Shown: positions 9,772 to 62,792 of the stretch, one piece after another
How positions within the stretch are numbered: the stretch's first letter is position 1
How the letters are laid out: every line of letters begins with the position of its first letter
NCBI GenBank assembly: GCA_009746045.1
Contig: RPFO01001880.1
Span: forward strand, 42,954 to 106,953
Source of the DNA: Mesostigma viride
Taxonomy: Eukaryota; Streptophyta; Mesostigmatophyceae; Mesostigmatales; Mesostigmataceae
Direction of reading: 5' to 3'
DNA: 64,000 nucleotides
Notes under the pieces: generated by a model
Databases searched by the model: none
The model's input: the letters and a program-made list of their open reading frames with translations, nothing else
Told to the model about the DNA's origin: nothing
Program-made: the position numbers and the translations under genes

Positions 9772-9786
9772 CTAGTGACGTGCGTT

Positions 9787-12396: not shown

Positions 12397-12712
12397 AGAA
12401 GCTACCTAGGCCTGCACTCCGGAACCACACTCAGCCTCGGCACAAAAAGGGCCGGCCAGTGCATGCGCAGTACCCTCGTGACAAGCGCTAGTCTTACGCT
12501 ACCTACGGCAGGTCGGTCCCCTTTGAGCCCGTCCACGCGTCATATATAACATGAGCGAAGCTCAGCAAATCCATGATCCATCCATCCATCCATCCATCCA
12601 TCCATCCATCCATCCATCCATCCATCCATCCATCCATCCATCCATCCATCCATCCATCCATCCATCCATCCATCCATCCATCCATCCATCCATCCATCCA
12701 TCCATCCATTAA
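12397..12712. repeat. Direct-repeat block ending in a CATC microsatellite, right copy
   Basis: Copy of the block at 9787-10110. Here the CATC tract runs from about 12577 to 12709 and then joins the AATTA-type tail of a minus-strand LINE. The two copies exactly bracket TTAA element A. Confidence 0.9.
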
Positions 12713-18793: not shown

Positions 18794-18794
18794 A

Positions 18795-38886: not shown

Positions 38887-38907
38887 GTCTACCCGCAGCG
38901 AGACCCC
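38887..38907. repeat. Palindrome-family site at the transposase 3' end
   Basis: GTCTACCCGCAGCGAGACCCC, a degenerate member of the GGGTCTCGCTG-type palindrome, lies 10 nt beyond the stop codon of the minus-strand gene. It is the leftmost copy seen in the window. Confidence 0.85.
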
Positions 38908-38917
38908 AATTTCTTGT

Positions 38918-41900
38918 TTAAGTCGGTGCCGGCCCCTCCGGGGCTTCATCCTTGATCACCAGCGCAGTAAGCCACTTGTCGAGCTCCTTGCTCATCCTGA
39001 TGTCGGCACACATTCCGTCGCTGCGCACGCGTGCTTCTAGACGGAGAGCCGGAGCGACGCAGAGATAGCAATTCACAAGCTCGGGCTGGCGTGACGGTGG
39101 CCAATCCTCAACGTTGAGCGTGAAATGCAGGGGGTCATGCTTATCCCGCTTCCAAATCCGAACGGGAAGAATGCCGTTCCCGGCGAGGAACAGCTCCTTC
39201 TCCCGTCCGTTCCGGCCCTCGACCCACCTCTCGAAGTTCTCGTCTAACACGATCGGCCCGGCTTCGCTTACAACCTCAGCCAACCAGAACGGGTGGATGG
39301 GATCGTGATCCGTGTCCTTGTCCGATGGAACTGCCACATAGTCGTGGAGTCTCATCTGCCGGCCCATCGCCTCCCGCTTGTCCTTCAGCTGCTCCCCCCG
39401 CGTCACCATGCGAACCGGAGGGTTGGGCTGGCTCGGTGGCAGCAAACGGACAGTTTTCATCGAGCTTCCTGCATCATTGAACTCGATGATAAACGACCAC
39501 TCGCTTAGACATCCCTCAAACCGCCCAGCCAAACAGGGCGGACAGTAGCAGGAATAGCGCCTAATCATCAAAAGGCCAGGGTCGGACTTGTCCAGTCGCC
39601 ACCAATGCGCCTTCTTGATGCCAGGCACCTCCTCCACCTCCGCGCGTCGGCCGGACTCGACGTCCTGTCATCAAATAGTTAGGGCAAAAAGAATACCGTT
39701 CAAGTTAGCAAAATTGACCAAAAATCAATAAAACAGGGTATAGCTGCAGAGAGACCCCTTACAAAAAAAAAAATAACGACAAGACATCAAGTGATCAAAA
39801 TTCGACACAGGGTATAGCTGCAGAGAGACCCCATTCGAATCATAATAACAACGTACGACAAGATATTAAGTGATCGAAATTCGACACAGGGTATAGCTGC
39901 AGAGAGACCCCATTCGAATCATAATAACAACGTACGACAAGATATCAAGTGATCGAAATTCGACACAGGGTATAGCTGCAGAGAGACCCCTTCATACCGA
40001 TAGAACAAGCGAAATTTCATACCTAAAAGAAAAGCAACCCATTGACAGTATATAGAGTTAATATTGCCTGGCAAGCAATATTATTCTACTAAGCTACTTG
40101 GCTTGTAGAGATTCTACTTCCGGTTACTACAATTCAGAAACGGGTTCATTCTGATGAGTATTGCTCGAGATATGAGCAAGATACTGTTCTACTACATTCT
40201 ACTTGGATTCAGTGATTCTACGGTGGTTCTTCAAGTGACGCGTGGCATACGGCGTCTTGTCACAGTGTACGATAGGACATTTAGTCTCCGACACTGCGGT
40301 CTATTCAATGCTATTGATTAGACGTAACAAATAGTGACAGGACTTGTGCGACAGGACACTGATGTGACTATTTATGGATAACGAGTCGAGATCTGCTGGT
40401 CCAGAGTGAAGGACAGCAATATTGTGAGATGATCTGTCCTATCAGTCATCTGGATGTGACTGCGTCACAATTAGTATACAACGAGCAGGAAGCTGCCACT
40501 TGGTAGCACCACTTTCCCTGCACCTGTGTCCTCGCACCTTCGGCGACGGTTCTCACGTGCCTCGTGCGTTCTGTGCTGGTAGCCATAACCAGCAACGTAA
40601 ACCTATTGATTAATATAACTACTTCCTCTGTAGATATTAATCAGTGCAGACTGAACCACAGTTCAGCCACAGTTTCATTAACTCGAATTACAAGCGAGTT
40701 CGTAATCTACTGATTACGGCATTGATTTCTGGTGTCGGCAAAATTTACGGTGTTGTTCCATTATAATATGGGAAACACGCGTGAATTTCGTGAACCATCT
40801 CTGGAGGCGCGGTGGATCCTTCGTCAAGCCTCAATTTCAACGTCAGCGGAGCAGTGGTCGAATTTGTTATCTCGAAGGTCGTCGGCAAGCATCTACGTAC
40901 GAATCGGCCTGCAGCAGGATGCGCCATATATGAACGATAAGTTGCGCGTGCAGTGGATTTCAGTTTTATGATCTGAATTTTACGGGAATGTTGTAGCGGA
41001 CTTTTGTATTCCGTTACTGGCCTGTTTTATGTGCACGGACTTCGCAATAAAAGCTTTGGATTTTATCGTTTCAGGGCCGGGATGTTGTGCTGCGAAACTG
41101 GGTTGTGGTTTCGTGAAAATATGTTGTAGTAATTACGTATGCTATACGAAAAACGTAGTTACGAATATGGAGTCGGTGGGGCCTGGTCCGGATTTGTTGC
41201 GCTTCTGCGAATGTAATACGAAGATTGTTTCGTGCCAGAATTGCGCAATTAGTTCAATATTTTATGTTGGCTGCTGCATGTGCGCAGTTGTGATGGACGC
41301 ATTAATACGAAAAATTATATATAATTTCGTATGCAGCGGAATTAAGTGTTGTCGCTGCGACAACATTGGCATTGCCAGCAGGGCATGTCGGATATATTTT
41401 GTCCTATATATGTCGATGATGATTATACCAACTGGTGTATGCTGTATAAATTTTCTTGTGCAGAACAAGCTCATGCTAATTAATGCATTTGCGTTATATA
41501 TATTAATGCTGCATGTTAATGACTTGTTTGCAAGGTCAATATTGAAGGCGAAAGCGTGGCTGGGTCGCCCGCGAAGTCGCAGCAAGCGAACTGAAGCGCT
41601 GATTGCAAGCGGCTGCGAGTGCTGAAGTGATCGGGCAGCTGCGAATGTCGCCAGCGATCTGGAAAGAGCACGAGTATCGCTGTCAAGAGCGGGAGAGAGC
41701 ACAAATGTCGCAAGCGGCTGTCAGAATTTGTCGCCATCGACAATGAAAGTCTTCAAGGCAGCTGCTGAGCGTGTTGGGAGCGAAGGCTTCACCAGTGAGC
41801 AGTCGCCCCGGGCGCGAGTGTCGCGAACGACTGAATGCTATACGCAACAACAAGTGGAGTTACTGTTGATACCTTTGTTGCATGAAGTGCAGCCTGGCGT

Positions 41901-44900
41901 GAAGGCGCACTTGCAAGCAAGGTTGTGATTTATTTGATAATCACTTCAACAGGGTAGGTGCCCAGTGGGGAGCACCTGGATCTGCGGTGCAGCGCAGCGT
42001 AACATGTTATTTCTGCCATGCAAACAGGGTCATATTGCCCTCTTTGGCATTGGCAAGTGAACCGAGGTGGGTATATTAATTTAACCCAACCTGACGGATT
42101 CTGCCTTCCCTGGGCTTGCTAGGGTCCGCCAGGGAGGGGGCTAAGAGTGACCCCCCCATTACTCTGGATGAAGTTGAGTTGCTCCCTGCACAGGTTGAGA
42201 GTCTCCCTGCACAGGTTGAGAGTGCATCCATGGAGGAAGAACACAATGGGGTAGTGACTGGGTCTTCCCACGTCACCATGGTGAAAGCAGTTACCACAAG
42301 GCAACAACGTTCCCACATGGCTCTTGGAGGTAGTTTGCGTACTCCTTCAATGTTGGAGCGTGGAAGTCCTGCCTTAGGGCAGGAAGCTCCTCTAGAGGAG
42401 GAGGGTGAGGCTGATGGCCTGAATGATGCAATGGGGAGCATGGTTGTAAGTGAGCGTGCTGTTCCAAGCACCTCACCTGTATTTAATAAAATGTCTCTTG
42501 TGTCAAACATTGCATTGAGATTGCATCACATGTTTGGTCATGCTGCCCAGGCACTCCAGTTTGCAAGGAGGCTGGGAGGGACATCTTTGTTTAATGCAGT
42601 AAAACAGGTTGCTGAGGCTTGTTCCTGTAGGCTGGTTGCTCCCAAGCCTAAGAAGTCTCATGTCAGACAACCTGTGTTGCAGCCTGGATATGTACAATGT
42701 GATATCCAAGAAATCAGGAAACTGATTTTGTTGGTTGGTGTTGATAGATATACCAAGTACAAGGTGCTGGAGCTGTTGCAAGACAAGTCTAAGCCATGTT
42801 TGGTGGCTGGGCTCCAGGCTATCAGATCCAGAATGAAACCAGTGATCCAGCTGCAGTGTGATTTAGAATTTGAGTGCTGCATGGGGAATGAAGACCTCCC
42901 TGAGTTATTTGTTGTACACAGGGAGTCCCATGGCAGTCAAGGCGTGGTGGAGAGGACAATCAGAGAACTCAAGACTATTCTGCTGACGGAGAAGAAGATT
43001 CCAAGATTGGTTCCAGCTATTATCAAGACGGCCTGGTTAAGGTCAGTTGAGGACAGATTGAATGTCAGGGCATCCATGTATGTTGGAGAGGTCCCTGTGA
43101 CTCCATTATCATTGCATCTTCGGGAGCTCCCTACTGAGGTTGAGCAAGCCTGGAAAGATAGCCTTATGTTCAAGTTTGCCAAGTTGAGGCAGAAAGACAA
43201 GGGCTGGAGTGTTCTGAAACCTGTTGTTGGCCAGAGGGTAATTGTGTGGAAAGAGCCCAAGCTTGCAGGCAAGCGTGGTAGCTGGCACCCTGGAGTAGTG
43301 ACCAGGGTGGAACTAGCTGGGCACAAGTGCTGGGTGAAGATGGAGGATCCTCCCCAGAATGTGCACCGTCTGTCGTGGTCATATGTACGTCTAAGGGGTG
43401 CTGAAGCAGAGGCAGTATCTCCTGATGTGACAACCTTGCCAGTTGGTCATGACGTCATCCCTGATCATCACGTTCAAGCTGGAAGTAATCCCCGGGTAAG
43501 TCCTGGCCAGACCCCTGGATCGGTTAACTTTCCATCCTTAGGACAGGCAGATGTGGTCCCCTCTAGCCTCACTAAGCATAGAGGTGTGGGCCTGAAAGAT
43601 GTGGTGCTGGCTATGCAAAAAGCCAAGCAAGGACCTCGGGTGTCCAAGCTCAGCCAGTTGGAGGAGTCCGAGGATGCTGTCCTAGAGGTAGATACCAATG
43701 CTGAGGTTTCTGTTATGGGATCTCAACATACAGGTCAACGGCAGGTGCTTTCGCCTAGTTGTGCTTGGGTGTCTGACTTTAGTGGCAGGACACACATTAT
43801 GGTATTGGGAGAGGTGCTGGTACCCTTCATGGGTGAGGATGTCACATTTCTTGTGCTTGAAGATTATGATGGCCCTATCATCTTGGGTCAAAATTTTCTG
43901 AGCTCTCCTAGAATTGTTGTGGCATCTGATAAGCTGAGAAAGTTTGGCTGGGGTAGCATACCCTTGGTCAATTTTAAAACCTCCCTTGCCAGTGTATTTA
44001 ATTCTGTGAAAGCGATCAAGAATGTGCAGTGGCCTGAGAATCAGATTCCTGTGGCTTCCAGTCTTGTTATGCCAGCTGCTCTACACCCTAGCAGTATTGG
44101 TATTACTAAGAGATCACTGGCTGCTCATTCTCCTCTTAGCTATGATCAGCTTGTCCAGGAAATGAGTTCTCCTCTAATGTTTGAGGCCTGGAGGCTAGCA
44201 TTTGCCAAGGCTCTAGAGGAGTGGTTGCAGTTTGACTGCTGTCAGCCTGTGAATGAAGTTCCCCCATACAGTACACGGTTGAAGCTCAGATTCGTCATCA
44301 AGCGGAAGGAGGTGGAGGGGGTGTCTGTTCCCCATGTGCGTCCAGTTCTCAATGAATACCGTGGTACTGGGGATCTTCTGGGCGAGGAGTTGTATACACC
44401 TGGGATGCTACATGATACATGGCGTATTTTATTGTGCCTGTATGTCGGTATGCTGAACCAGGGTGCTGATATGTCTTCAGTTCTGCTAGATTTCAAGAGA
44501 GCATTTCTGAAGGGTGATCCCAGTGTGGCTCAGCAGGTGTGGCATTGTGAAACTCCATTTCATGTGCCAGTTCCTGTAGCCTGGCAGGCAGAGCTCCAGT
44601 CTAGCTACCTGCTGATTCTGAAGGGTCTAGAAGGTCTCAGGTCCAGTCCCATCATTTGGAGGCTCACCTTGGAAGACTTCTTGACTAAACACTGTGGGTT
44701 GAAGGTGTCATCTGTGGACCCATGTTTATTGCTGGGTAGGTGGCATGATTTACCTGTGTATGCTAGCCTGCATGGTGATGACTTGCACTTGATTGCTCCC
44801 ACTAAGTGGTTGAGTCAGTTTGTGCCCATCATTAATGATGCATTTCCTTTGGGAAAAGAATTGTGGCAGAAGCCTGGAGAGGCTGTCACGTTCTGTGGAA

Positions 44901-47900
44901 TGCAGGCTACATTGGTTCAGGAGGGGAGTCAGTGGCTGATTAAGCTGCAGGCGGGCAATGACTACAAGAGTACCATTCTTCAATCTGTTCCAGAGGTCAT
45001 GACGTCATCCATTGCACCTGAGCTGAAAGGCAAGTTGGCCTGGTATGGCAGCATTTGTGGGCCTGACATGATGGTCCATAGCAGATCCCCTGATGATGTG
45101 CTAATTCTGGAGGAGCCTTCCCAGATTATTGCACATGTTAACAAGTCTCCTGGTATTACTTTAGCTGGGATTGATTTGTCTTTGCCATTTTCCTTGGATA
45201 TCTATGTTGATAGCTCCATGGATAGCAGGCAAGTTTCTAAGGTCAGAGGCAGGTCAGCTGGCTTGTTTGTGCTTCAGCAACATAGGCCTAGTCTTGTGGC
45301 CTGGTACAGTCGTCTTCAAAGAAGGGTTGCTGTGAGTTCAGATGTCTCTGAGTGCAGAGCCATTTGTGAAGGGATTCAGTCCAGTTTGTACATCAAGGAG
45401 CTGTTGCTAGCTATGGCTTCAGTGACTCCTCATACTCTTCAGATGGAAACCTTGATCCTTTCAGATAACATGGGCATGGTCCAGTTTGTGCACAAGCAGT
45501 TGGCCAGAAGCAGAGATCTGGATTATCTCCTGTTGAAGGAGTTGGCAGGTCTGGTGGATATTCAACATCTTCCAGGTTCTGAGAATCCTGCTGATGCCTT
45601 GACCAAGTTACCTCACAAGTCTGCTGAGCAATATAAGCTTCTTTACAAGCTGATGAGCTCCTCTGTGTGAGTTGAGCAATTCCAGTTGGAGCTTTGAGTT
45701 TGGTGACTGATTGGGTGAGAAGAGCTAACATAGAGCTGGGCTCTGTTATGCTGAGAGCTGTGATGCTCTGAGGGCAGTAATGCTCTGTGTACATATGTGT
45801 ATAATACTGTATTCTATGTAATGCTCAGTCATGGAGCATGATGTTGGTTGGGGGTTTGTCCTCAGTTTGAGGTTTGTCTCAACCAAAGGGATTTTATAGG
45901 GCAGGGTTCGATTCCCTGGGGCTGCTTAGGCGGATTTTCCCGGATTGGCTGGCCCATCAACCTTGCTGGTGAGGTGGCGACAGGTCCCCCTAGTTTTGTC
46001 CCAGACAGAGGAATGTAGTTTGTCATGTGCTTAATATATTTTGTGATGTGCTATTTCTCAGTCCATGGTGGGCGCCAGTTCTGATAACTATCAATGTCTA
46101 CCTGATAAGGTCTTGTGGGTAACTTGTGGGGTTCCAATCAGGAGCCATTATGGTGATGATTCCATTTTGGTCATTATTCTGGTTAGCCACAAGCTGCTAT
46201 TCCAAACACTTGGCTTTCTACTTCCAGTGGATAGGGAATTCATTGTAATTCGTCATGGCTGAGATGTGTTGTGATCTGGTGCTTGATTAATCCCGAGCAG
46301 AGACTACAGAGAGCTGGGAGGGATGTCAAGTGCTATGCATGTTGTTTCTATATATGTGTTGCCAAGCCTAACAGCTCTAAAAGAAAGAAAGGGCTGGAGT
46401 TAATATGGCTGTTACGTCCAAGCTCTAAAAGAGAAGAAAGGGCTGGAGTTAATATTGCCTGGCAAGCAATATTATTCTACTAAGCTACTTGGCTTGTAGA
46501 GATTCTACTTCCGGTTACTACAATCCAGAAACGGGTTCATTCTGATGAGTATTGCTCGAGATATGAGCAAGATACTGTTCTACTACATTCTACTTGGATT
46601 CAGTGATTCTACGGTGGTTCTTCAAGTGACGCGTGGCATACGGCGTCTTGTCACAGTGTACGATAGGACATTTAGTCTCCGACACTGCGGTCTATTCAAT
46701 GCTATTGATTAGACGTAACAAATAGTGACAGGACTTGTGCGACAGGACACTGATGTGACTATTTATGGATAACGAGTCGAGATCTGCTGGTCCAGAGTGA
46801 AGGACAGCAATATTGTGAGATGATCTGTCCTATCAGTCATCTGGATGTGACTGCGTCACAATTAGTATACAACGAGCAGGAAGCTGCCACTTGGTAGCAC
46901 CACTTTCCCTGCACCTGTGTCCTCGCACCTTCGGCGACGGTTCTCACGTGCCTCGTGCGTTCTGTGCTGGTAGCCATAACCAGCAACGTAAACCTATTGA
47001 TTAATATAACTACTTCCTCTGTAGATATTAATCAGTGCAGACTGAACCACAGTTCAGCCACAGTTTCATTAACTTATAGGGTCTCTCTGCAGAGATACCT
47101 TTATTGGGTTTGAATTTTTATAGAACAGCGGCAGTTGACGTCTTAAAACCTGAAATAACACACAATTCCGTACCGGGGGTAAAAGGAAGAAGTGGCGAGT
47201 GACGTTCTCGGCCCGCGCGCGGGCCGACTCCCTGCTCGATGTCTTGCCGCCCTGCCAGTTCTGGTTCAAGTAGGCGACTAGCTGGTGGGTCTCAAGTATG
47301 TGCTGGTTTTCGGGAATCCTCTGCATTTCCCTCAAGACGCACTTGCACTTCGCTCCTTGACCATCCACCTCCCCCTTCCCATGCTGCTCCCCCATGTAGT
47401 GGAACTCAAAGGCCTGCAGGTCGGGATCCCCCATGAGCAGACCGTTAATCTGGTTAATCACGTACCTGGACTTAAACTGCACCGCGCAGTTGTCCGAGCA
47501 CATGTACAGGTTTCGCACCTCTACCCCTACTTCTACCCGCAGGGTTTCCAGAATCTTGCGAAGAGCGTATACGAGTGCGCGCTCGCCCCGCTTGATACTG
47601 GAATCCCCCAGGAAAAAGAAGACGCGCTTTTCCAGCTCGCCGTTGAGCCGATAACGCACGATCATGGGCATCAGGATGTGGCTGCGCTTGTGGAAGTACT
47701 GCGACTGCAGTTGGACGTAGCTGCTGTTCTCGTAGTTCTCGGCCCAGTCGCCGTGCACGAGCACGTCCCCCTCTCTCAGATTCTTCTCCCGATCCTTGAT
47801 TGTATCCGCCTGCGACCAGGCCGTAAAGCAGTGCACGGTGAACTTGTCCCACCTCTTAAGAATCTCGTCCCGCAGCTCTGACAGCTGGGGTGGACCTCAT

Positions 47901-49676
47901 TTGGACTTGCTCGGGCCGCTTCACCTTCTTCGCCGCCCTGCCATCGGTCTCGCCCTGTTTCGCAAAGGTCCGCAGACAGTTTCGATTTGCAATAAAATCG
48001 CATTTCGATCAGATAACTGCAACTCACAAAGGGTCTCGCTGCAGCTATAGGTCACAAAAACAAAAAGTCAACAACATTTTAACGGAGAAATAAAATCGAA
48101 ACCTACTCACCCTCACCCCTCGGGTCACAGTCTGCTCCACCATCTCGAACTTGAACCAATTCAGAATCTCCGTGGAATTCTTGTCCCGATCACACTGCAC
48201 CCAGTTATTATGGATGCCGCATGATTCCTCAGGACAGAACCCCTCCACACACGCCATCTTCAGTATGCGGTGAACCCTCTCCGTCCTCGGCACCCCATCT
48301 TCGTCCTCCACCAGCCTCTCAGAAATGTCGAGGTCTTCCAGGTCCCGTCCCCGCCATTCATCTTCCCCCTCCCCCTCTTCCATCCCCCCGCCCATTCCGC
48401 CCCCTTCACGCAGCCCGTTATCCCTGCCGTCAGTCTCGGCGGACACCGGGCAGTGAAAGTGCTTGATCCAGTCCGTCGAGTGAATGGCTTTCCACATTCC
48501 GCAAGTACCGTCCGGCTGTCTGTACTTGGAGCATCCCGCACACTCCGCGCCACACTTGCAGTTCTTGCCGTGGTTCGCATTGCAGTGCTTGGTCCACGCC
48601 CCCATGGCCGACTGCATGGTGACGTGCTTCTCACACGCGCACAGGTTCCTCTCCTTCCACTTGCCCTTGATGCAATCGGGCGCGTATTTGCAGAAGGTCG
48701 TGTAGCCCACGTGAATGCCCACGTCCTTATCATACTGGTTACTCCTTTTGTTCCAGTACGCATGCTTTTCGAGAAAGTGATTGTACATGTCCTCCTTGGA
48801 GGTCATGTAATAGCGCGCTCCCTCAACGGCGACGAGCACCCCGCGATTGCCATGACCCTCCCTGCTGTAAGTGCGCTTGACATCCTTCATCTGGGAGGAG
48901 GCGCGCGACTCATCATCGTGCATCCACGCGTCCACTATCGCGTCAATCACGAATTGCGGCAAAGGGCGCCCCTTGCGAGCCTGCGCGTGTCTGAGGTAGT
49001 CCAACTTCTGCTGCCTTCGTATCGCGCGAATTCCGCGAATCTTCTTGGCGTCCATCCCCGTCAGGTTCTCCAACTCCGCGGCCGAAAACTCCTTCTCCAA
49101 GTCGTCACCACAGTAAAGCGTGGACATCAGCACCATCCTGACGTCTCTGTCTGCGTCGCTTTTGGTCAGACCATCAAAAAAGCCGTTAATCCGAGCCACC
49201 CAGAACCTGTTCAGTTCTGCCATCCGCTCCTGATTGTAAAGCTTTTTCGCCTCCTCATGATACTTCCCGTGACCTAGTTCAGCGGCCCTAGAGTTAAAGC
49301 CAGCAATCATCTGGTCGAAAGCCGGCCCCCGCCCCTCGGGTTTTGTCATCGCCTGAGCCGCTTCAAACGCCTGGTCAGCGAAATATTCCCCAATAACCCT
49401 CTTTGATTTCGAGTATTCTCCCGGCCGCTTGACTTCCTTGGCTTCAGGCTGCGCTGGATTCTGGTTCTCATCTCCGAAAACCCTTTTTGCGCCAGTTGAC
49501 TGCTTCGTCCCGGTGTTCAACTTAATTGCACTGAATCCTGGACGACCGGACGCAAGGGCGAAAACTCCCACCCGTTCGCGTGCTGCATGCCATGACGACC
49601 GGCACAACGAAATCCATGCAAATCGAGTATCGTTGGGAAAAGCGACAATTACAGACAAAGTTCGAAAGTGTATCAT
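38918..49676 (-). CDS. DDE-like transposase candidate, 3 exons, about 1005 aa
   Basis: Exons on the minus strand are 49676-48117, 47884-47174 and 39664-38918. Both junctions are GT-AG and phase 0, and the joined frame is open throughout. The N-terminal region is charged; then comes a Cys/His-rich segment (NLCACEKHV, WTKHCNANHGKNCKC, CAGCSKYRQ, CGMW) that should bind zinc. Exon 2 carries VHGDWAENYENSS, YMCSDNCAVQFKSRYV and EQHGKGEVDGQGAKCK. This D..ENY, SDxxxxQFK, HGKGxxDG pattern resembles RNase-H-fold DDE-like proteins scattered in animal and protist genomes. Exon 3 adds another Cys cluster (YSCYCPPC) and a chromatin-reader-like C-terminus (YVAVPSDKD, FWLAEVV). The first residues may be 5' UTR; the start could be later. 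The second intron would be about 490 bp without the LTR retrotransposon sitting in it. Superfamily assignment is inference; coding integrity suggests recent activity. Confidence 0.65.
39736..39990. repeat. Tandem 79-bp repeats, each with one palindrome, in transposase intron 2
   Basis: Palindromes GGGTATAGCTGCAGAGAGAC start at 39736, 39810, 39889 and 39968. The last three are exactly 79 bp apart within units containing AAGTGATCGAAATTCGACAC and CATTCGAATCATAATAAC. Confidence 0.92.
40056..40683 (+). repeat. 5' LTR
   Basis: Starts AGTTAATATTGCC and ends TTTCATTAACT, giving 7-bp terminal inverted repeats AGTTAAT/ATTAACT rather than the usual TG..CA. Just inside the start, AATATTGC and GCAATATT form a hairpin. 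Confidence 0.95.
40684..42115 (+). other. Leader of the LTR element, gag not recognised
   Basis: About 1.4 kb between the 5' LTR and pol. A 198-codon frame at 41029-41625 is Cys-rich with two hydrophobic stretches and carries no CCHC knuckle or capsid-like motif. I cannot call it gag. No primer-binding site was identified with confidence. Confidence 0.5.
42116..45670 (+). CDS. pol: Copia-like pol polyprotein with order INT-PR-RT-RH, 1184 aa
   Basis: Residue positions are approximate. An H-H-C-C integrase zinc motif (LHHMFGHA then CSCR) lies at 136-170. The integrase core has Asp in VQCDIQEI (196), Asp in LQCDLEFEC (249) and Glu in GVVERTIREL (277). After a linker with a GAG-pre-RT-like basic region, a retropepsin-like segment lies at 520-610: VDTNAEVSVM, VLGEVLVPF, IILGQNFL. 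Its usual DTGA reads DTNA. The copia-type RT follows (STRLKLRFVIKRKEVEG, LDFKRAFLKG, LEGLRSSPIIW) with the catalytic motif LHGDDLHLI instead of YVDD. RNase H comes last (DIYVDSSMDS, SECRAICEGI, LSDNMGMVQFVHK). Copia elements normally run PR-INT-RT-RH. The frame is uninterrupted. No gag domain lies in this frame, so gag is missing, separate or supplied in trans. Confidence 0.9.
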   Translation: MLGSAREGAKSDPPITLDEVELLPAQVESLPAQVESASMEEEHNGVVTGSSHVTMVKAVTTRQQRSHMALGGSLRTPSMLERGSPALGQEAPLEEEGEADGLNDAMGSMVVSERAVPSTSPVFNKMSLVSNIALRLHHMFGHAAQALQFARRLGGTSLFNAVKQVAEACSCRLVAPKPKKSHVRQPVLQPGYVQCDIQEIRKLILLVGVDRYTKYKVLELLQDKSKPCLVAGLQAIRSRMKPVIQLQCDLEFECCMGNEDLPELFVVHRESHGSQGVVERTIRELKTILLTEKKIPRLVPAIIKTAWLRSVEDRLNVRASMYVGEVPVTPLSLHLRELPTEVEQAWKDSLMFKFAKLRQKDKGWSVLKPVVGQRVIVWKEPKLAGKRGSWHPGVVTRVELAGHKCWVKMEDPPQNVHRLSWSYVRLRGAEAEAVSPDVTTLPVGHDVIPDHHVQAGSNPRVSPGQTPGSVNFPSLGQADVVPSSLTKHRGVGLKDVVLAMQKAKQGPRVSKLSQLEESEDAVLEVDTNAEVSVMGSQHTGQRQVLSPSCAWVSDFSGRTHIMVLGEVLVPFMGEDVTFLVLEDYDGPIILGQNFLSSPRIVVASDKLRKFGWGSIPLVNFKTSLASVFNSVKAIKNVQWPENQIPVASSLVMPAALHPSSIGITKRSLAAHSPLSYDQLVQEMSSPLMFEAWRLAFAKALEEWLQFDCCQPVNEVPPYSTRLKLRFVIKRKEVEGVSVPHVRPVLNEYRGTGDLLGEELYTPGMLHDTWRILLCLYVGMLNQGADMSSVLLDFKRAFLKGDPSVAQQVWHCETPFHVPVPVAWQAELQSSYLLILKGLEGLRSSPIIWRLTLEDFLTKHCGLKVSSVDPCLLLGRWHDLPVYASLHGDDLHLIAPTKWLSQFVPIINDAFPLGKELWQKPGEAVTFCGMQATLVQEGSQWLIKLQAGNDYKSTILQSVPEVMTSSIAPELKGKLAWYGSICGPDMMVHSRSPDDVLILEEPSQIIAHVNKSPGITLAGIDLSLPFSLDIYVDSSMDSRQVSKVRGRSAGLFVLQQHRPSLVAWYSRLQRRVAVSSDVSECRAICEGIQSSLYIKELLLAMASVTPHTLQMETLILSDNMGMVQFVHKQLARSRDLDYLLLKELAGLVDIQHLPGSENPADALTKLPHKSAEQYKLLYKLMSSSV
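46377..46446 (+). repeat. Duplicated polypurine tract before the 3' LTR
   Basis: CTCTAAAAGAAAGAAAGGGC then TGGAGTTAATAT at 46377-46408 is repeated as CTCTAAAAGAGAAGAAAGGG at 46422, running into the real LTR start. Both copies include the first bases of the LTR, so there are two candidate plus-strand priming sites 46 bp apart. Confidence 0.8.
46447..47074 (+). repeat. 3' LTR
   Basis: Same length as the 5' LTR. The only difference noted is C for T in the ACAATYCAGAAAC segment near the start. Confidence 0.95.
47079..47099. repeat. Palindrome-family site bordering the retrotransposon
   Basis: GGGTCTCTCTGCAGAGATACC. Its first G is the last base of the right TATAG target duplication, so the retrotransposon entered at the palindrome's edge. 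Confidence 0.9.
48031..48050. repeat. Palindrome-family site in transposase intron 1
   Basis: GGGTCTCGCTGCAGCTATAG lies in the 232-bp intron 47885-48116. The right half is partly degenerate. Confidence 0.88.
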
Positions 49677-49691
49677 TTTTTACCACGATTG

Positions 49692-49950
49692 GGGTCTAGC
49701 TGCAGCTAGACCCTTAGAGGGGCTTTTTCCGTTAGACGAAAAGATTACCTGATGTGGTGAACTTAGCATACCCCGACCAAGATTGGGGTCTCGCTGCAGC
49801 TAGACCCTTCATTGCGGCGTGCGATTGTTAAATCACAGACTTCTGATTCATTAATTTTATAGCAACCATAAAGAGGGTCTAGCTGCAGCGAGACCCTTGA
49901 ATTTAAGCTATTGCTTGTGGTTATAAATGGTCTAGCTGCAGAGAGACCCC
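49692..49950. repeat. Cluster of four palindromes upstream of the transposase gene
   Basis: Sites start at 49692 (perfect, half-site GGGTCTAGCTG), 49786, 49875 and 49929, spaced 54-94 bp. They lie just beyond the first transposase exon, in its probable 5' UTR, leader intron or promoter. Confidence 0.92.
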
Positions 49951-50094
49951 AATAAGGACGAAAAGATTTCAGGTTTTCCTCACCTTCGCGGCTCATTCTC
50001 TTATTAGTTCTCCCAGAACACTCAGATACCTGCATGGCGAGAATAACAAAAATAACACAGTAGCATTGATAAAATTGTTTATCAGAAAATATAT

Positions 50095-52738: not shown

Positions 52739-52905
52739 CATATCGTTTCGACGTTTGCATGCTACCTGCTGGATTATAAAATCCTACGTTGATACCTGCC
52801 TGGTGCCGGAAGTTTACAAGGAAATCGGTCTGCTTTCGCCGCACAACGAAAAAAAGGTGAGCTTTTGCCGCATCCTGGATGGTAGGCTGACTAAAATTGT
52901 TCTAT
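52739..52905 (+). repeat. About 165-bp direct repeat, left copy
   Basis: Shares TATCGTTTCGACGTTTGCAT, GCTACCTGC, GGATTATAA, and TGGATGGTAGGCTGACTAAA at its end with 53307-53466. The middle has diverged. It could be duplicated exon-like sequence, since AAAAAAAGGTGA is a possible donor. Confidence 0.75.
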
Positions 52906-53306
52906 CAAAAACGGCAACTAAACAGCGCATGCACGCCGACGACACAGTTAGCCAGCTGGGCGAAGACATGTCCTTGCTGCCATCGCAAGAAACTCTATGT
53001 TGCAGCAAGAGTGATAAAAATGTCTGGCTTCCTTCTTTTCGTTGCTAGCTAAACCCTGCAGACATCTCGGTAGAGTCAGCTAAGCCGATCCTAATCCACA
53101 TCTGGCATCCATCCCTTTAGTCTAGTTGCCATGGAGCGTTTCTTGGTCTCGCACATGTCGATCATGGTGGTGCTAGGCTTTCACTTGGGTCACCCTTTCC
53201 ATGTTTGCTATGCCTTTGGTCTGGTTAGGTTATAGGTGTAGATGTGCACATACTGCATTTGCTGCGTTTCTAATCGGTGCTCCTGTTTGATGCTTTTTTT
53301 CCCCTT

Positions 53307-53466
53307 CATATCGTTTCGACGTTTGCATGCTACCTGCCGGATTATAACATCGGACGTTGCTACCTGCCTGCATAACGATAGTTTGCAAGAAATCTTCATT
53401 TTGCCGAAACACAAAAAAAGGTGATCTTTTGCCGCAACGTGGATGGTAGGCTGACTAAAATTGTGC
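53307..53466 (+). repeat. About 160-bp direct repeat, right copy, abutting the minisatellite
   Basis: Second copy of the repeat at 52739-52905. The 30-bp minisatellite starts immediately after its GACTAAAATTGT end. Confidence 0.75.
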
Positions 53467-56050
53467 TGCTACGTATCAATACATGTGGGGGGGTGCTGCT
53501 ACGTATCAATACATGTGGGGGGGTGCTGCTACGTATCAATACATGTGGGGGGTGCTGCTACGTATCAATACACGTGGGGGGGTGCTGCTACGTATCAATA
53601 CATGTGGGGGGGTGCTGCTACGTATCAATACATGTGGGGGGGTGCTGCTACGTATCAATACATGTGGGGGGGTGCTGCTACGTATCAATACACGTGGGGG
53701 GTGCTGCTACGTATCAATACATGTGGGGGGGTGCTGCTACGTATCAATACATGTGGGGGGGTGCTGCTACGTATCAATACATGGGGGGGTGCTGCTACGT
53801 ATCAATACATGTGTGGGGGTGCTGCTACGTATCAATACATGTGGGGGGGTGCTGCTACGTATCAATACATGTGGGGGGTGCTGCTACGTATCAATACATG
53901 TGGGGGGGTGCTGCTACGTATCAATACACGTGGGGGGGTGCTGCTACGTATCAATACACGTGGGGGGGTGCTGCTACGTATCAATACATGTGGGGGGGTG
54001 CTGCTACGTATCAATACATGTGGGGGGTGCTGCTACGTATCAATACATGTGGGGGGGTGCTGCTACGTATCAATACATGTGTGGGGGGGATGCTACGTAT
54101 CAATACATGTGGGGGGGTGCTGCTACGTATCAATACACGTGGGGGGGTGCTGCTACGTATCAATACATGTGGGGGGTGCTGCTACGTATCAATACATGTG
54201 GGGGGTGCTGCTACGTATCAATACATGTGGGGGGGTGCTGCTACGTATCAATACATGTGGGGGGGTGCTGCTACGTATCAATACACGTGGGGGGGTGCTG
54301 CTACGTATCAATACATGTGGGGGGGTGCTGCTACGTATCAATACATGTGGGGGGGTGCTGCTACGTATCAATACATGTGGGGGGGTGCTGCTACGTATCA
54401 ATACACGTGGGGGGGTGCTGCTACGTATCAATACATGTGGGGGGGTGCTGCTACGTATCAATACATGTGGGGGGGTGCTGCTACGTATCAATACATGTGG
54501 GGGGGTGCTGCTACGTATCAATACATGTGTGGGGGGATGCTACGTATCAATACATGTGGGGGGGTGCTGCTACGTATCAATACATGTGGGGGGTGCTGCT
54601 ACGTATCAATACATGTGGGGGGTGCTGCTACGTATCAATACACGTGGGGGGGTGCTGCTACGTATCAATACACGTGGGGGGGTGCTGCTACGTATCAATA
54701 CATGGGGGGGTGCTGCTACGTATCAATACATGTGGGGGGTGCTGCTACGTATCAATACATGTGGGGGGTGCTGCTACGTATCAATACATGTGTGGGGGGG
54801 ATGCTACGTATCAATACATGTGGGGGGGTGCTGCTACGTATCAATACACGTGGGGGGGTGCTGCTACGTATCAATACATGTGGGGGGGTGCTGCTACGTA
54901 TCAATACATGTGGGGGGGTGCTGCTACGTGTCAATACATGTGGGGGGTGCTGCTACGTATCAATACATGTGGGGGGGATGCTACGTATCAATACATGTGG
55001 GGGGGTGCTGCTACGTATCAATACATGTGGGGGGGTGCTGCTACGTATCAATACATGTGGGGGGTGCTGCTACGTATCAATACACGTGGGGGGGTGCTGC
55101 TACGTATCAATACACGTGGGGGGTGCTGCTACGTATCAATACATGTGGGGGGTGCTGCTACGTATCAATACATGTGGGGGGGTGCTGCTACGTATCAATA
55201 CATGTGGGGGGTGCTGCTACGTATCAATACATGTGTGGGGGGGATGCTACGTATCAATACATGTGGGGGGGTGCTGCTACGTATCAATACACGTGGGGGG
55301 GTGCTGCTACGTATCAATACATGTGGGGGGGTGCTGCTACGTATCAATACATGTGGGGGGGTGCTGCTACGTATCAATACATGTGGGGGGGATGCTACGT
55401 ATCAATACATGTGGGGGGGTGCTGCTACGTATCAATACATGTGGGGGGGTGCTGCTACGTATCAATACATGTGGGGGGGTGCTGCTACGTATCAATACAC
55501 GTGGGGGGGTGCTGCTACGTATCAATACACGTGGGGGGGTGCTGCTACGTATCAATACATGTGGGGGGGTGCTGCTACGTATCAATACATGTGGGGGGTG
55601 CTGCTACGTATCAATACATGTGGGGGGGTGCTGCTACGTATCAATACATGTGGGGGGGTGCTGCTACGTATCAATACATGTGGGGGGGATGCTACGTATC
55701 AATACACGTGGGGGGTGCTGCTACGTATCAATACATGTGGGGGGGTGCTGCTACGTATCAATACATGTGGGGGGGTGCTGCTACGTATCAATACATGTGG
55801 GGGGTGCTGCTACGTATCAATACATGTGGGGGGTGCTGCTACGTATCAATACATGTGTGGGGGGATGCTACGTATCAATACATGTGGGGGGTGCTGCTAC
55901 GTATCAATACATGTGGGGGGGTGCTGCTACGTATCAATACATGTGGGGGGGTGCTGCTACGTATCAATACATGTGGGGGGGATGCTACGTATTAATACAC
56001 GTGGGGGGTGATGCTACGTATCAATACATGTGGGGGGTGATGCTACGTAT
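53467..56050. repeat. 30-bp minisatellite, about 85-90 copies
   Basis: Unit GCTGCTACGTATCAATACA followed by TGTGGGGGGGT, 28-30 bp long, varying mainly in G-run length, ACATG versus ACACG, and occasional loss of one GCT. The plus strand is G-rich. Because the array is open in all three plus frames it gives 840-890-codon frames with CYVSIHVGG, ATYQYMWGG or LLRINTCGG repeats, which I regard as artefacts. Confidence 0.97.
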
Positions 56051-56652
56051 CATTTATTTATTCATGCCATCATCCCCCCACATTTAATTATTAATGCCAT
56101 CACCCCCCACATTCTTTTATTCATGGCAGCACACCCCCACATTTATTTATTCATGCCATCACCCCCCACATTTAATTATTAATGCCAGCACCCCCCAACA
56201 TTCATTTATTCATGCCATCACACCCCCACATTCTTTTATTCATGGCAGCACCCCCCACATTTATTTATTCATGCCATCACCCCCCACATTTAATTATTCA
56301 TGCCAGCACCCCCCACATTCATTTATTCATGCCATCACCCCCCACATTCTTTTATTCATGCCAGCACCCCCCACATTCTTTTATTCATGGCAGCACCCCC
56401 CCACATTTATTTATTCATGCCATCACCCCCCCACATTTAATTATTAATGCCAGCACCCCCCAACATTCATTTATTCATGCCATCACACCCCCACATTCTT
56501 TTATTCATGGCAGCACCCCCCCACATTTATTTATTCATGCCATCACCCCCCCACATTTAATTATTAATGCCAGCACCCCCCCACATGCATTTATACATAG
56601 CATCCCCCCCCACATGTATTTATACGTAGCTTCCCCCCCCACATGTATTTAT
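56051..56652. repeat. Inverted, diverged continuation of the 30-bp minisatellite
   Basis: Units such as CCCCCCACATTTATTTATTC then ATGCCATCAC align with the reverse complement of the preceding unit (CCCCCCACATGTATTGATAC, GTAGCAGCAC). The strand switch lies near 56050. The last units at 56580-56650 (ACATGTATTTATACGTAGC) are again close to the canonical inverted unit. Confidence 0.9.
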
Positions 56653-56664
56653 ACGTGGTCGTAA

Positions 56665-57128
56665 GGGTCTCGCTGCGGGTAGACCCTCGGAATTTTGTTT
56701 TTGTATTGACGTTAGGGTCTCGCTGCAGCGAGACCCCAAGGAATGTCAATTTTTCATGTTTTCATGATGGGGGGTCTTTCTTTTCTCACCCTTAAAATGA
56801 TTTGTTTTTGTATCGGTGTTAGGGTCTCGCTGCAGCGAGACCCCTACGAATGTCGACTTTTAATGTTTGCAAGATGGGAGGGGGCTTTCTTCGCTCACCC
56901 TAAAAATTATTTGTTTTTGTTTGACGTTAGGGTCTCGCTGCAGCGAGACCCCAAGGAATGTATACTTTTTTATGTTTGCATGATGGGAGGTTGCTTGTTT
57001 ACGCTCACCCTAAAAATGATTTGTTTTTGCTTGAAGTGAGGGTCTCGCTGCAGCGAGACGCCAAAGTTTTGCATTAAACTAAATGTCCCTTTTAGAATCC
57101 ACGAAAGGGTCTAGCTGCAGCGAGACCC
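56665..57128. repeat. Palindrome cluster with about 108-bp tandem units upstream of the plus-strand gene
   Basis: Sites start at 56665, 56715, 56822, 56930, 57040 and 57107. Three (56715, 56822, 56930) are perfect, with half-site GGGTCTCGCTG. From 56715 to 57061 the spacing is 107, 108 and 110 bp, within units containing GGAATGT, TTTTTATGTTTGCATGATGG-like and CACCCTAAAAATGATTTG. The region is the probable 5' UTR or leader intron, ending at the TTCTGCAG acceptor before 57206. Confidence 0.93.
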
Positions 57129-57205
57129 TCCCCATCGTTTTTCTGCCGGCGATTCAGATTCTGAATGACATTTGTGAAACTTGCTTTTTTGATATTGTTC
57201 TGCAG

Positions 57206-60200
57206 ATGTCGTCCTCCTATTCCGATTCTGTCAAGGCCACTCCCGTTTCACCCAAGATGACGGCGAACACCTCGCCGGACCGAACGGCAACGGAGGAGTT
57301 TCCTTCGTTGCAGTTCGGTCCCGTAAAAGATCTTGCGAGGTCCCCCCCACCGAGTCCCCCTCGCCCTCCAAGTCCAACTTGCCCCCCAGCGAGTTGGACA
57401 GAATTATACCCCCCACCTCTCTCGCTGCTGCGTCTCGCGCTCCGTCCCGCTCTCCGCCCCGTAAGTCTCCATCGCCGCCCCCCAAGTCGGCCGGAGCTAC
57501 TGCGTCCCGCTCGCCGCCCCGCAAGTCCCCCAAGTCCCCCGCAACTGCGACCCGTTCGCCGAACCGCAAGTCCCCCTCTCCGCCCAAAGTTCCCCCCGCT
57601 ACCGCGTCCCGCTCTCCTTCTCGCAAGTCCCCCTCGCCGTCAACCAAGAACCCCGCAACTGCGACCCGCTCGCCGTCCCGCTCTGCTTCCCCCAAGTCCC
57701 GCTCGCCGCCACCCAAGTCCCCCGCTGCTGCGTCCCGCTCGCCGTCCCCCAAGCATTCCAGTTCTAAGCGTAAGCCTGCGGCCGAGTGGGTAGAGGAAGA
57801 CGACCGCACCAAAGAGCTCAGGAAGCTGAGGAAGTCTATCAGTGAGCTTGTTGAGGAGGACGAGCGCGATCAGACTAACGGGAGGCCTGAAGACCCGGAA
57901 TCGCCGGTTCGGGAGTCGCGTCAGAAGCGGTTGTCCGATTTGTTAGCAATGGCCGCAAGCTTTGCTGACGAATACGCGGCTCTCGACAAGAAGGACAAGG
58001 AGAAGGAGAAGGCGGAGAGGGAGGCCATCGAGAAGGCGGAGAGGGAGAGGGTGGAGAGGGAGGAGAAGGAGAGGCTGGAGAAGGCGGAGAGGGAGGAGGA
58101 GGAGAGGGAGTACAAGGAGAAAAAGGCTGCCCAGGAGAAGGAGCACAGGATCCTGGTGGCGAAGCAGAAGGAGGAGGCGAAGAAGAAGACGGAGGCGGCA
58201 GCGAAGGGAATTCTTGCGGAGGAGGCCGCTCTTTTTTTGCAGATGCGACAGGAGAGGATGAAGGCGGAAGAGGCCGCGAGGAAGATGGAGGAGGAGGCTG
58301 CGAGGAAGGGGAGGAGGCTGCGAAGGCAGTTGAGGGGGAGAAGGACGAGAACGGGAGCCCACCCCTTCTTCACGAAGGATTTTCAGTCGATTATCAGGTA
58401 TGTTTATTAATGTGAGACGTACATTTTTCAGATGGCTTGAACGGCGTGTGTGTATCGTAGAAAGGGTGGGATTTTATGTCATACATTGATCGTAAGGGTC
58501 TAGCTGCGGAGAGACGTTGACCTAGGAGTTAAGGTTGTTGACGACGACGATGTGTGGCCTTTTTTTTACTCTTGTTGTCTGCAGCCCGACACGCTGGCCA
58601 TTCTGAAACAGTACCTGGCTCAGGCTGAGTCTGAGTCTGGGGTGAGTCGTAAAGCCGAAAAGGTCTTGAGAGGCTTGATCCGCTTTCTTTCGGCCGAGAT
58701 AGGTTTGCAGAGAAGTCCGGTGTCGTCGTGTGACCGTCCAGTCAGAACGTAATTTGGAAGAACGACCGCTGGGCCGCTTGCTTTGTTCGAAGCCACACAG
58801 CGAGCCATTCATGGGAAGAGGGTCGTTGGTGACGACATGTATGAGGTTTTGAAGATCGCGCAGTCGTGCATCCTTAATCTGAAGGAGGATGTCGGACGTT
58901 ACTTTCCCCGTCGTGCTTTAATATGGTCGACGCTCTTTGATGAGGTTGAAAAGTTCGAGGTCCACATTGGCTTCACATGCATCGAGGCTTCCTATATGGA
59001 AACCTTGAAAACCACTGCGTTGCATCAGCTCTTTAAACTCATGACTGGAGATATGAGAGCGGATTCGAGGGCTTCACTGTCGGAAGATGAAGTGTTTGAT
59101 ATTGTCAGGCAAGGATTTGTTGACACGTCCAACAGTGACTATATCGTAATTGTGCCGGGAAGAATGAATGACGTAGGAGGATTGGAGGAGCGCGCACATG
59201 AAGTGATCGCGCATTTGGACATGGCAAGAGACCACTTACTGCAATCTTTTGTTAAGTGGCGGACTGACTTTCTTGTCAGCCCGGACGCCAGCCTTTCGCG
59301 GGAAGCGGTCGCTTTCTTTTTGGATTGGGCTGGACAGGTGATCCAAAGTTTCCGGCACCGGGAGGACTTCCATGTTATTCAGACATATAAGCCATACCGG
59401 GAAGTCGTCCAGGAATGGTTGGATCAAATCTCGTTGGTTGATTGTCTCCAGAGTATCCGAACCAAGACAGACACGGAGTGGTCTGATTTAGAGGCGGGAG
59501 GCCATTGGCAGTCCCTCGAGTTGTTCTTCGAGGCGGAATTGAGGCGGCAACTGGAAAAGGAGAGAGCCCATCAAGTGCCGATATGGCCTTTGGGGAAGAT
59601 TTTGAGGAGGTGGAAGTTCTACGTTTCGGTACGTTAACTTGCCGATATCGTTTATCGATTTGGGTTGTTTCCATTCCCTGAATAGGGCTCTATATGCTGA
59701 CCAACCTTCATGGTTTGTCCTGTCATATCATGCAGGGGGGCTCCATGCCAGGGGACGTATCGGAGGATTTACCTAATTTGTCAGACTTGGTTGATAAGGT
59801 GGGTGCTTGTCCGTCGAGTTTCCACGAGCATCTTACATGGGGTCTAGCTGCAGGTAGACCCTCACCCTTTTATTGAGACTGACATGTTCGGCTAATTTCA
59901 ACGGTGCCCCCAACCAATCTGTTGTCTTTTTTCAGGGGGCGGCTGCGGCGATGGCTGTTGACAGTGCTGGTATTTGGTCTGGACTCGAGATGGAAATGGT
60001 AAGCATTAAACGATATCCGGATGTCTGCATTTCGCCTGAAGTTTTAGTGAGCGCATTATGCGAAATATACAAATATCGACTAATTTTGATTTCCAATGAG
60101 CTGTCGTATTCGGTGTTGACAGGCGGGGGGTTTGGCCTCAGCAGGCGCTGCCGGAGAGGAAGAAAACGCTGGAGGAGATGAGGATGGGGGGGATGAAAAC

Positions 60201-62792
60201 GCTGGAGGAGATGAGGATGGGGGAGACGCTGAGGGAGAAGTGGCTGTGCAGGTACGTTCATCCGCCGCGAGTTCGTGTGATTTTTTTCGTGCTGAGGGGT
60301 ATCTCCGCAGAGAGACGATGGTGCAACAATCGAACTGAGGTCAAGTCCCTTCTTGTTCGTTTTTTTTTGTAATGCAGGCGGGGGCTGTCGCTGGGGGTAC
60401 TGCGGGGGGGAAGGCGGCGAAGCCTCCATTGACTGAGCATGAAAGGGAAAAGCTGGATTCCCGCAAGAAGGTTGCGAAGGATCATATTATTGCTGTTGGC
60501 CTGATCATGCTTAAGTCTCCGCCCGATGGCGTCGATTCGGAGGGACCTGCGGGGTCCGAGTTTCGCAAGTACCTGACACGACTTGAGGCGGAAGTCGATG
60601 CCGATTTCGATACGGAGGTGTTGGGTGACGCTACCTTTAAGAGTGAATTGGCATATGAATTCGCAAATCTGGTGAAGTCGAAAGCCACCAAGAATTTCAA
60701 GTGGCAGCCTAAGGAGTACTCAGAGGCAAAGGTTGACAAGATCGAGAAATTCATGAAGGCTGATTTTCGTCGTCGGGCCGCTGAGGGAAAAAGGGCGCTG
60801 AATGCGGTGGCAAAGGCCAACAGTAAGAAGAACGCGGAGGCGAAGGCGGCGGAGAAGGAGGCGAAGAAGGCGGAGAAGGAGAAGGCTAAGGAGGCCAAGA
60901 AGCAGCAGAAAACTGGACAGGTACGATTGTTGTGAAAATTTAGACCTCTCGCTGCGGGTAGACGCTGACCGGCTGCGGGACTTTGTGTTTAGTGTCAGTA
61001 AGGTACTATTCCAACAGAACTTTGTTCGTCCCTGAACAGGATGTCGTGGTCGGCCTAAAGATTACTGACTTGAGCAAATCCTGCGGTCCTTTTCGATTTT
61101 TTACTTCAGGATGACGGGGGGGACGAAGACGCCACGGTGGAGAAGAAGTTACCTGGTCATGACGCCGTGTTCGCGCTGGTGAAGGATATGGTCAAGTACT
61201 GCTCGAGTAGGCGGATGGCGGACGTCGATGACCTGCCAAACTGGCCCGAGTTCTCCCCCTTTCTTGAGCTGCTCCGGTCACTCAACAAGCTTTTTAAGGA
61301 GGGGGTGCTCACGAGCAGTGGGAACCCGGACACCGACCCTATCATTGAAAGCTGGAAGCCTTCGAAAAAGGTCGACTCGAACAAGGAGGTCAGGGACCAG
61401 AACATCCGGAAGGCCAATACTCTCAGGGAAACGCGTTGGATTCGGCCGGCCGATTTTAAGCAGACCGGATGTTTCAGTATGCGGATCCAGACGGTCAACG
61501 CGCTTATTTTGCCAGAGGCTTTGAGGCAGCGGCGTTTAAACCTTGAAACCATTAAGGAGAACGGCCACATTCTCCTCAATGCGCGGGACAACGCCTTGCA
61601 CTTCAAGGTTGTTGTCCCGGTCTGGCAGTTCCCTTTCCAGGCGCTTGCCGAATCTCAACCTGACCTTTTCGACAAGCAAATCTTGTGCATGCCGGATTTC
61701 GTCAAGTGGCTGAAGCATACCACGGCGCCAAGATTGACGCGGAGGATGTGGGGTCCAGGTACTTCCGGCCCCTTTCGGATACTGAAGTCGACGTGTGGCT
61801 TAACACGGAGTCCACCACCTCTTTCCTCGCGAGAGGACTTGAGTGGCGTACCTACGCCAGGTGGACGAGGTGGAAGCAGTTTTGCCTCAGGAGATCGAGG
61901 GCAGTCGGCAAGTTTTCAACCTGCTGTGCAATACTGCGATGAAGTCCTACGATCCGAAATTTTTTGAGGAACGGGTACCGGTACCGTATCTGGTTCTCCG
62001 GTACGCGGTGGTGGATGGGAACCACTACTTTAAGGGGTTAAAGTCGTTTCTCAGGGGGCCGGATGGCGGGTGGGGAGAGGTTCGGGCAATGATGTGCGAG
62101 GGTGGGGCGGAGTCCAATTTCGCAAATACTCCTAAGGAGGCGGAGCACGCATTCCAGGACCTGTTGCGGAAATTCCGTGGTGGTTACATGGGTACGAACG
62201 TCATTCTTCTCAAGGGTGGCGACCTGCTCCCGTCGTGGAGTGAGCTGCGAAATCTACCTAAGGCAAAAGAAGATGTAAGCTATCTATTTTGGCAGGGTCT
62301 AGCTGCGGGTAGACCCTCGGAATTTTCGTGGTTGTTTTTTGTGTGCGCTTCAAGTTTTTTGCGAGGGTCTCGCTGCAGCTAGACCCTCTCCTTTTTTTTG
62401 TTGGAATTTTCGTTGCGTATTGTCGGCCGTTTCTTTTTCGAATTTTATTAGGGTCTATCCGCAGCTATACCCCTCGCCTTTTATGACGAGTTTTGTCGTT
62501 GCTCGCTCGATGTTAATTGATGTCGCAGGCGGTGCTGACCGGCAAGCTGGAGAAGTGCTGTTCGACATCGCCAAGGGGTGAAAGGGGGCGAATTCGCGAG
62601 GACTTAGCCGTGGCGGATCGTACGCTGGCCAGGCCTTGCTTGACGTGTGGAACTACGGCGCAAGCCCTTCAGCCCCACCCCCCAACATTATCGTACCATC
62701 TCCGGCCGGTTGAGGAATGGACGGAAGCTGTCGGCAAAAAATGGCCGGACGCCCACCCCTCTCTGAAAGTTACTCCACTTATCACCCCATAA
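57206..62792 (+). CDS. Large coiled-coil protein of unknown function, 9 exons, several frameshifts
   Basis: Not recognised. Exons: 57206-58397, 58585-58641, 58801-59628, 59736-59798, 59936-59998, 60123-60251, 60378-60920, 61110-62274 and 62529-62792, about 1430 residues. All eight introns are GT-AG and phase 0. The ATG lies directly after an acceptor-like CTGCAG. Order: Ser/Pro/Lys repeats (PPRKSPSP-like, about 150 aa); a Glu/Lys/Arg coiled coil (about 110 aa); a folded-looking segment in exon 3 (DDMYEVLKIAQSCILNLKED, WRTDFLVSPDASLSREAVAF); an acidic Gly/Asp repeat (GGDEDGGDENAGG); a segment starting KPPLTEHEREKLDSR that ends in a Lys/Ala/Glu coiled coil; then a long segment with FVKWLKH and VPYLVLRYAVVDGNHYF. 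Frame slips occur near 57340 (C run), 58308 (G run), 61700 and 61840, so the gene is either decaying or carries assembly errors. Divergent from the transposase gene and sharing its palindromes, it is probably part of the same element. Confidence 0.6.
58496..58516. repeat. Palindrome-family site in intron 1 of the plus-strand gene
   Basis: GGGTCTAGCTGCGGAGAGACG, partly degenerate, within the intron 58398-58584. Confidence 0.85.
59840..59861. repeat. Palindrome-family site in intron 4 of the plus-strand gene
   Basis: Half-site GGGTCTAGCTG followed by CAGGTAGACCC, within 59799-59935. Confidence 0.9.
60297..60316. repeat. Degenerate palindrome site in intron 6
   Basis: GGGTATCTCCGCAGAGAGAC within the intron 60252-60377. 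Confidence 0.7.
60944..60964. repeat. Degenerate palindrome site in intron 7
   Basis: ACCTCTCGCTGCGGGTAGACG within the intron 60921-61109. Confidence 0.75.
62295..62472. repeat. Three palindrome-family sites in the last intron
   Basis: Sites start at 62295 (GGGTCTAGCTGCGGGTAGAC), 62365 (GGGTCTCGCTG then CAGCTAGACCC) and 62451 (GGGTCTATCCGCAGCTATAC), all in the intron 62275-62528. These are the rightmost copies in the window. Confidence 0.9.

Follow-up and report, generated by a model that had tools for sequence, protein, structure and literature searches.

The window analyzed here, a 64,000-nucleotide stretch of the streptophyte alga Mesostigma viride, forms the final 64 kb of contig RPFO01001880.1 (the contig stops at window position 64000) and contains many copies of a 22-bp palindrome, GGGTCTMGCTGCAGCKAGACCC. 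Their concentration in one part of the window raises two questions: (i) what kind of element carries them and (ii) what role they play in it. The first has a direct answer. The DNA from position 37210 onward, past the end of the contig, is a single copy of a DNA transposon that M. viride carries in many copies. For the second, the palindrome most likely serves as the docking point of a protein able to recognize its own family alone, and the explanation that we consider probable overall is that family palindromes let an element-encoded protein mark and protect its own copies.

Addressing the first question, we counted patterns in the 440-Mb M. viride genome (G000; a published assembly has 442 Mb, PMC6947507). 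From it, 20 stretches, with ten whole or partial copies, were extracted and aligned with the window. The element begins with a 24-bp terminal inverted repeat (TIR), GGGTGGTCCCACGCGGAATGGGGT, whose inverted twin lies at the right ends of copies A, B, C, D, E, F, S, and L022 (with a variant base in A and L022); behind the TIR, the two ends share additional imperfect inverted similarity. Genome-wide, the repeat occurs at 236 + 230 places, against 0 in the control. All three copies of the window family (F1, with a P0001-type transposase) that have both ends are flanked by 4-bp target duplications (AGGG, GCCT, and TTAG). TIRs with a target duplication of fixed length, the signature of a cut-and-paste DNA transposon, were found in 3/3 F1 copies and in 1/1 copies of a sister family, P0002 (F2). 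Pfam scans of transposase, gene-2, and left-end pieces, which covered gene 2 only partly, gave no match to a Rep-helicase, tyrosine recombinase, or PolB. A preliminary description made from the letters of this DNA had proposed one large mobile element at 38887..62792. The single element is borne out, and the alignment of flanks defines termini and target duplications; the proposed ends have to move, as the TIR starts at 37210 and the right end of the window copy lies outside the window.

Copy D is 20,659 bp long. Among 100 termini listed of the 236 + 230, there are 27 facing pairs: 13 are 19.5-27.8 kb apart, five 10313-10365 bp, one 10.7 kb, one 16.1 kb, and seven more than 32 kb. The five pairs at 10313-10365 bp (C280:165411, C335:4786351, C36:18339, C80:300151, and C429:16388) likely represent a non-autonomous derivative mobilized as a unit. 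A second left terminus at C1:7893574, about 0.7 kb beyond the left end of copy D, is perhaps a truncated or nested copy. Copy counts obtained by protein searches are lower bounds, with 57 of 1519 candidates scored for P0001, 45 of 1621 for P0002, and 63 of 1485 for a third transposase, P0003 (F3). At least 25 of the 57 scored F1 copies are 100% identical to P0001 over residues 16-507, in exon 2, and the F1 family therefore moved recently.

The palindromes are tied closely to this element. At ≤3 mismatches the window holds 18 matches, every one within 39736-62472, and dinucleotide shuffles gave such matches in 0/100 cases. Scoring of two half-sites (≤7 mismatches in total) finds 27 sites in the element part of the window and 28 in copy D, with 1 in the reversed-sequence control of D. 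The more than 25 copies counted in the preliminary description are thereby recovered, as is their confinement to the element; beyond it the window has only isolated half-sites with 2 mismatches apiece, ten before 37210 and one in an inverted tail at the contig end. With exons as drawn here, 26 of the 27 sites are outside exons: in introns, in an array of six 5' of gene 2, and in further non-coding parts. Introns 1, 2, and 3 of the transposase gene contain 4, 1, and 5 palindromes, and introns of the second gene, gene 2, contain one to three each where occupied (58496, 59840, 60297, 60944, 62295, 62365, and 62451; exons by eye). Genome-wide the palindrome occurs at 3019 places (control 0), in clusters that recur in the same order. 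Fifty of these places were listed; 46 were in extracted stretches, and all 46 fall within element copies. Among the places listed, palindromes and transposase thus co-occur, as had been anticipated, and a spread irrespective of the genes is not seen.

The left gene, on the minus strand, matches the M. viride gene model P0001 at 99% identity across 90% of the query. Its four exons were mapped by tblastn with P0001-P0003, and exon 1 was inferred from P0001 and splice sites. We take its product to be a DDE-type transposase from a lineage that Pfam does not cover, because the modeled core has an RNase H fold (mean pLDDT, the model's confidence score, 57; 36 for the full-length P0002 model) and conserved acidic motifs (H-x-D-x-AENY, SDNC, and GEQHGKGEVDG), kept in P0001, P0002, and P0003. 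Fold searches with the core matched RNase H1, Argonaute/PIWI, and retroviral integrases, and in the viral library chiefly RNase H and viral polyproteins; no named transposase was among the best 50 matches of either search against the PDB. Among the pieces of transposase, gene 2, and left end that were scanned, none had a Pfam match reaching the cut-off. The hints on the transposase, DUF7869 over the P0002 core (E 0.12, a weak profile similarity that is not significant) and TniQ (E 0.11), were far below it. P0001-P0003 have no match to the MULE domain, and none to the KDZ domain, though HMMER filters discard most weak matches. Searches of protein databases matched only three Mesostigma proteins, and no relatives were found in IMG/VR, GTDB genomes, or PDB sequences. 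The reading frame breaks near 47882 in the window copy, and copy D is also not intact, with stops in exon 2.

The sister families show what changes and what is kept. The same genome encodes two transposases related to P0001: P0002 (64% identity over residues 440-760) and P0003 (43% in the core). P0002-family elements have the same layout, with TIRs GGCCGGGCCCACTTCGAATG and a TACA duplication in the one copy examined. Their palindrome is a changed variant (half-site GGGTCRCKCTG; 1166 places genome-wide, control 0), and that of the P0003 family, GTTRCGCCGGCCGKCGTT, is unrelated to the F1 palindrome (2020 + 2204 places, control 2/3). Exon junctions flanking the transposase core are at matching places across the three families, and all nine transposase introns hold at least one candidate site, with ≤4 mismatches in seven of the nine (intron 1 of P0002 is inferred). 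In the P0002-family element, site 3983 is in intron 2. The palindrome thus differs from one transposase lineage to the next, but its placement is kept. Among the sites listed, 30/50 of F1 have a listed F1 transposase at a distance of 20 kb or less and 0/50 an F2 transposase; for F2 sites, 25/50 are near F2 and 1/50 near F1; and 77/100 F3 sites are near an F3 transposase. The transposase lists behind these distances are lower bounds. Between P0001 and P0002 the N-terminal part is 49% identical and the core 66%, as expected if the N-terminal part carries specificity.

Variation between copies, compared with copy D left out, approximate exon labels, and the left open reading frame (ORF) counted as non-coding, is low within the palindromes: 12/616 positions segregate, versus 384/6392 in other non-coding DNA (Fisher 3.9e-6) and 321/8762 in exons. 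Each half of the palindrome follows the consensus on its own. Pairing of left and right halves (237) equals that of shuffled halves (237.8). The two halves therefore vary independently, a pattern compatible with a dimeric DNA-binding protein but not with an RNA hairpin.

These observations suggest how the palindromes may act. An element-encoded dimeric DNA-binding protein would bind both half-sites; recognition by an encoded factor, as supposed in the preliminary description, is kept here as the best reading. The likelier binder would be the transposase, via its less conserved N-terminal half or the CxC region, because 26 kb of a P0003-family element, in which its right end was not located, show no homologue of gene 2. 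Binding along introns and promoters would mark each copy of the protein's own family, and marked copies would stay transcribed or free of silencing, as VANC does for VANDAL elements. Protein and sites would co-diverge, leaving each family in the genome with a private palindrome.

Sequence-specific self-recognition of transposons in non-coding DNA is known in detail for the VANDALs of Arabidopsis. We infer a VANC-like logic for the Mesostigma element because VANC/VANDAL is the closest working analogy. VANC proteins bind family-specific motifs in intron, intergenic, and upstream DNA and reverse silencing there, and the VANC21 motif is the 9-base YAGTATTAY in same-orientation arrays (PMC5735166; PMC10398659). 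Both systems have multiple short motifs, chiefly non-coding and often in tandem units, that are family-specific and co-evolve within one genome; family-specific motifs enriched in non-coding DNA were found here too. In contrast to the 9-base VANC21 motif, the Mesostigma sites are 18-22-bp palindromes with two half-sites, and their binding is predicted. The Mesostigma element also differs from VANDALs in having short TIRs, 4-bp duplications, and a transposase without a match in Pfam.

Two other groups invite comparison. CACTA/EnSpm elements with TnpA are large two-gene DNA transposons that carry an accessory gene and repeat their recognition sites, and the Mesostigma element resembles them in these features. 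It differs in a TIR that begins GGG or GG (GGGTGG), in its 4-bp duplication, and in internal sites at least 970 bp from the ends; Pfam gave no CACTA-type match, and termini and subterminal sites of CACTA type were not found. KDZ (Kyakuja-Dileera-Zisupton) elements are large, with a DDE core and cysteine-rich parts. The Mesostigma element shares the size, a DDE-like core, and a cysteine-rich part, and has a 4-bp duplication versus 8 bp for Zisupton.

What appears to be new is a DNA transposon from a DDE-like lineage absent from Pfam that would use private recognition codes in the manner of VANC. The superfamily may already be named; titles and abstract openings on Mesostigma transposons, palindromic or subterminal superfamilies, superfamily reviews, and giant transposons of streptophytes do not name this element. 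We put forward, tentatively and as a stronger claim than we would defend in full, that self-recognition resembling that of VANC arose independently in an unnamed DDE superfamily of a basal streptophyte alga: the transposase itself would bind family palindromes in the element's own introns and promoters, and private codes would co-diverge, together with the protein, among sister families in one genome. If true, this would be a second case of self-marking, with palindromes, another transposase lineage, and an early-diverging streptophyte, and such marking would evolve repeatedly. Three protein/site pairs would be at hand for studying the co-evolution of specificity.

Several points weigh against this explanation. 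The putative binder is possibly the gene 2 product or a host factor instead; the P0003-family stretch shows no gene-2 homologue, but its right end lies outside what was located. Palindromes differ only weakly from exons in variation (Fisher p 0.024), and their low variation could partly reflect gene conversion or the fact that sites were chosen in copy D. With 5 mismatches, the sites in intron 2 of both the P0002 and the P0003 family are degenerate and singly not clearly over control; at the 5-mismatch level the P0003 pattern gives 24 matches versus 13 in the reversed control. In a P0002-family element, exons contain 2 of 33 sites (5133, in exon 2, and 18127; 6 mismatches each; reversed control 3). 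In the window, the claim that no site lies in an exon fails for the weakest one (38177-38198, 5 mismatches), which is inside the left-end ORF. Finally, C/T or G/A variants occur at 2.3% of CpG versus 1.4% of other C/G positions. This excess is mild, so methylation of the element may be weak. The CpG data point both ways, since the element, with an observed/expected CpG ratio of 0.95, is less CpG-poor than window 1-37000 (0.76) or the copia insert (0.48); methylation may be either escaped or simply weak.

Other roles for the palindromes can be weighed against the same evidence. Accessory transposase sites for synapsis or cutting, comparable to internal enhancers or to the subterminal sites of CACTA elements known for TnpA of Spm, would likewise change with the transposase family and fit a dimer, and it would suit them that the P0003-family stretch showed sites at and near the transposase gene only. 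We think this role unlikely, as the sites keep away from the termini (in copy D, 970 or 1387 bp separate the left end from its nearest site, and 1767 bp the right end) and occur in introns and before gene 2. Sites in first introns and 5' of gene 2 could also be enhancers captured from the host, bound by a transcription factor or insulator protein. That is distinctly improbable: all 46 checked places are inside element copies, and a single host factor does not explain a palindrome that differs among three sister families in one host.

Intronic RNA hairpins that affect splicing or processing would account for the inverted symmetry and for a candidate site in each transposase intron, but six F1 sites lie 5' of gene 2, and the independent variation of the halves led us to reject this very improbable reading. 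Least probable of all is the alternative of the preliminary description, mobile palindromes that colonized the locus, perhaps in the manner of introners or MITEs (miniature inverted-repeat transposable elements). The sites do recur in tandem units; we reject mobility because none of the 46 checked places is outside an element copy, and sites aligned in 5-8 other copies show 0-3 differing letters altogether. Marking of its own copies by an element-encoded protein stays our preferred reading.

Table 1. Features of the transposon copy in the 64-kb window (window positions)
Feature	Position	Strand	Details
Left TIR GGGTGGTCCCACGCGGAATGGGGT, 24 bp	37210..37233	+	same start in copies A, C, D, G, and window
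Left-end ORF, 204 aa	37658..38272	-	homologue at same place in P0002-family element, 46-61% aa identity
Transposase exon 4 (C-terminal)	38921..39667	-	tblastn with P0002
Four palindromes GGGTATAGCTGCAGAGAGACCC	39736..39989	.	tandem units, spacing 74-79 bp, transposase intron 3
Copia-like long terminal repeat (LTR) retrotransposon	40056..47074	+	in transposase intron 3, target duplication TATAG; foreign to element
Fifth intron-3 palindrome GGGTCTCTCTGCAGAGATACCT	47079..47100	.	half-site scan
Transposase exon 3	47174..47954	-	5' edge approximate; RNase H-like core HGDWAENY, SDNC, GEQHGKGEVDG
Intron-2 palindrome	48031..48052	.	one half perfect, other half 4 mismatches
Transposase exon 2	48111..49583	-	3' edge approximate; less conserved N-terminal part, CxC cysteine cluster
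Four intron-1 palindromes	49692..49949	.	
Transposase exon 1	49984..50028	-	inferred from P0001 and splice sites
2-kb insertion	50095..52061	.	long direct end repeats; in spacer; missing from copy D; foreign to element
30-bp minisatellite spacer	53463..56652	.	P0002-family element: different 30-bp unit, same place
Six-palindrome array 5' of gene 2	56665..57128	.	
Gene 2	57207..62656	+	several exons; SP- and K/E-rich at first, globular later; ORFs and splicing assigned by eye
Inverted copy of internal element stretch	62685..64000	-	87-89% identity; ends with contig

The remaining features are collected in Table 1. A DDE-like transposase candidate and a divergent large gene, separated by a repeat-rich spacer, had been described before, and all are seen here. 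Gene 2 is large and partly of low complexity, and not every copy keeps one open frame through its first part. Its later parts are 53-56% identical to the P0002-family homologue (24-34% for an earlier part); such identity across two families marks it as a real gene. The P0002-family minisatellite between its two genes runs in L031 from 7683 to 10000 onward. The retrotransposon previously placed within the element is the copia-like insert, which ends AGTT..AACT rather than the usual TG..CA and sits at a palindrome edge. The inverted tail is probably an assembly artefact at the contig end. Elsewhere in the window are ATCC/CCAT tetranucleotide arrays (9966-10107, 12576-12709, and 22307-23112, the last of about 800 bp) and arrays of a 40-bp tandem repeat with AATCCAACGGCGAAA (18359-18794 and 20701-20835).
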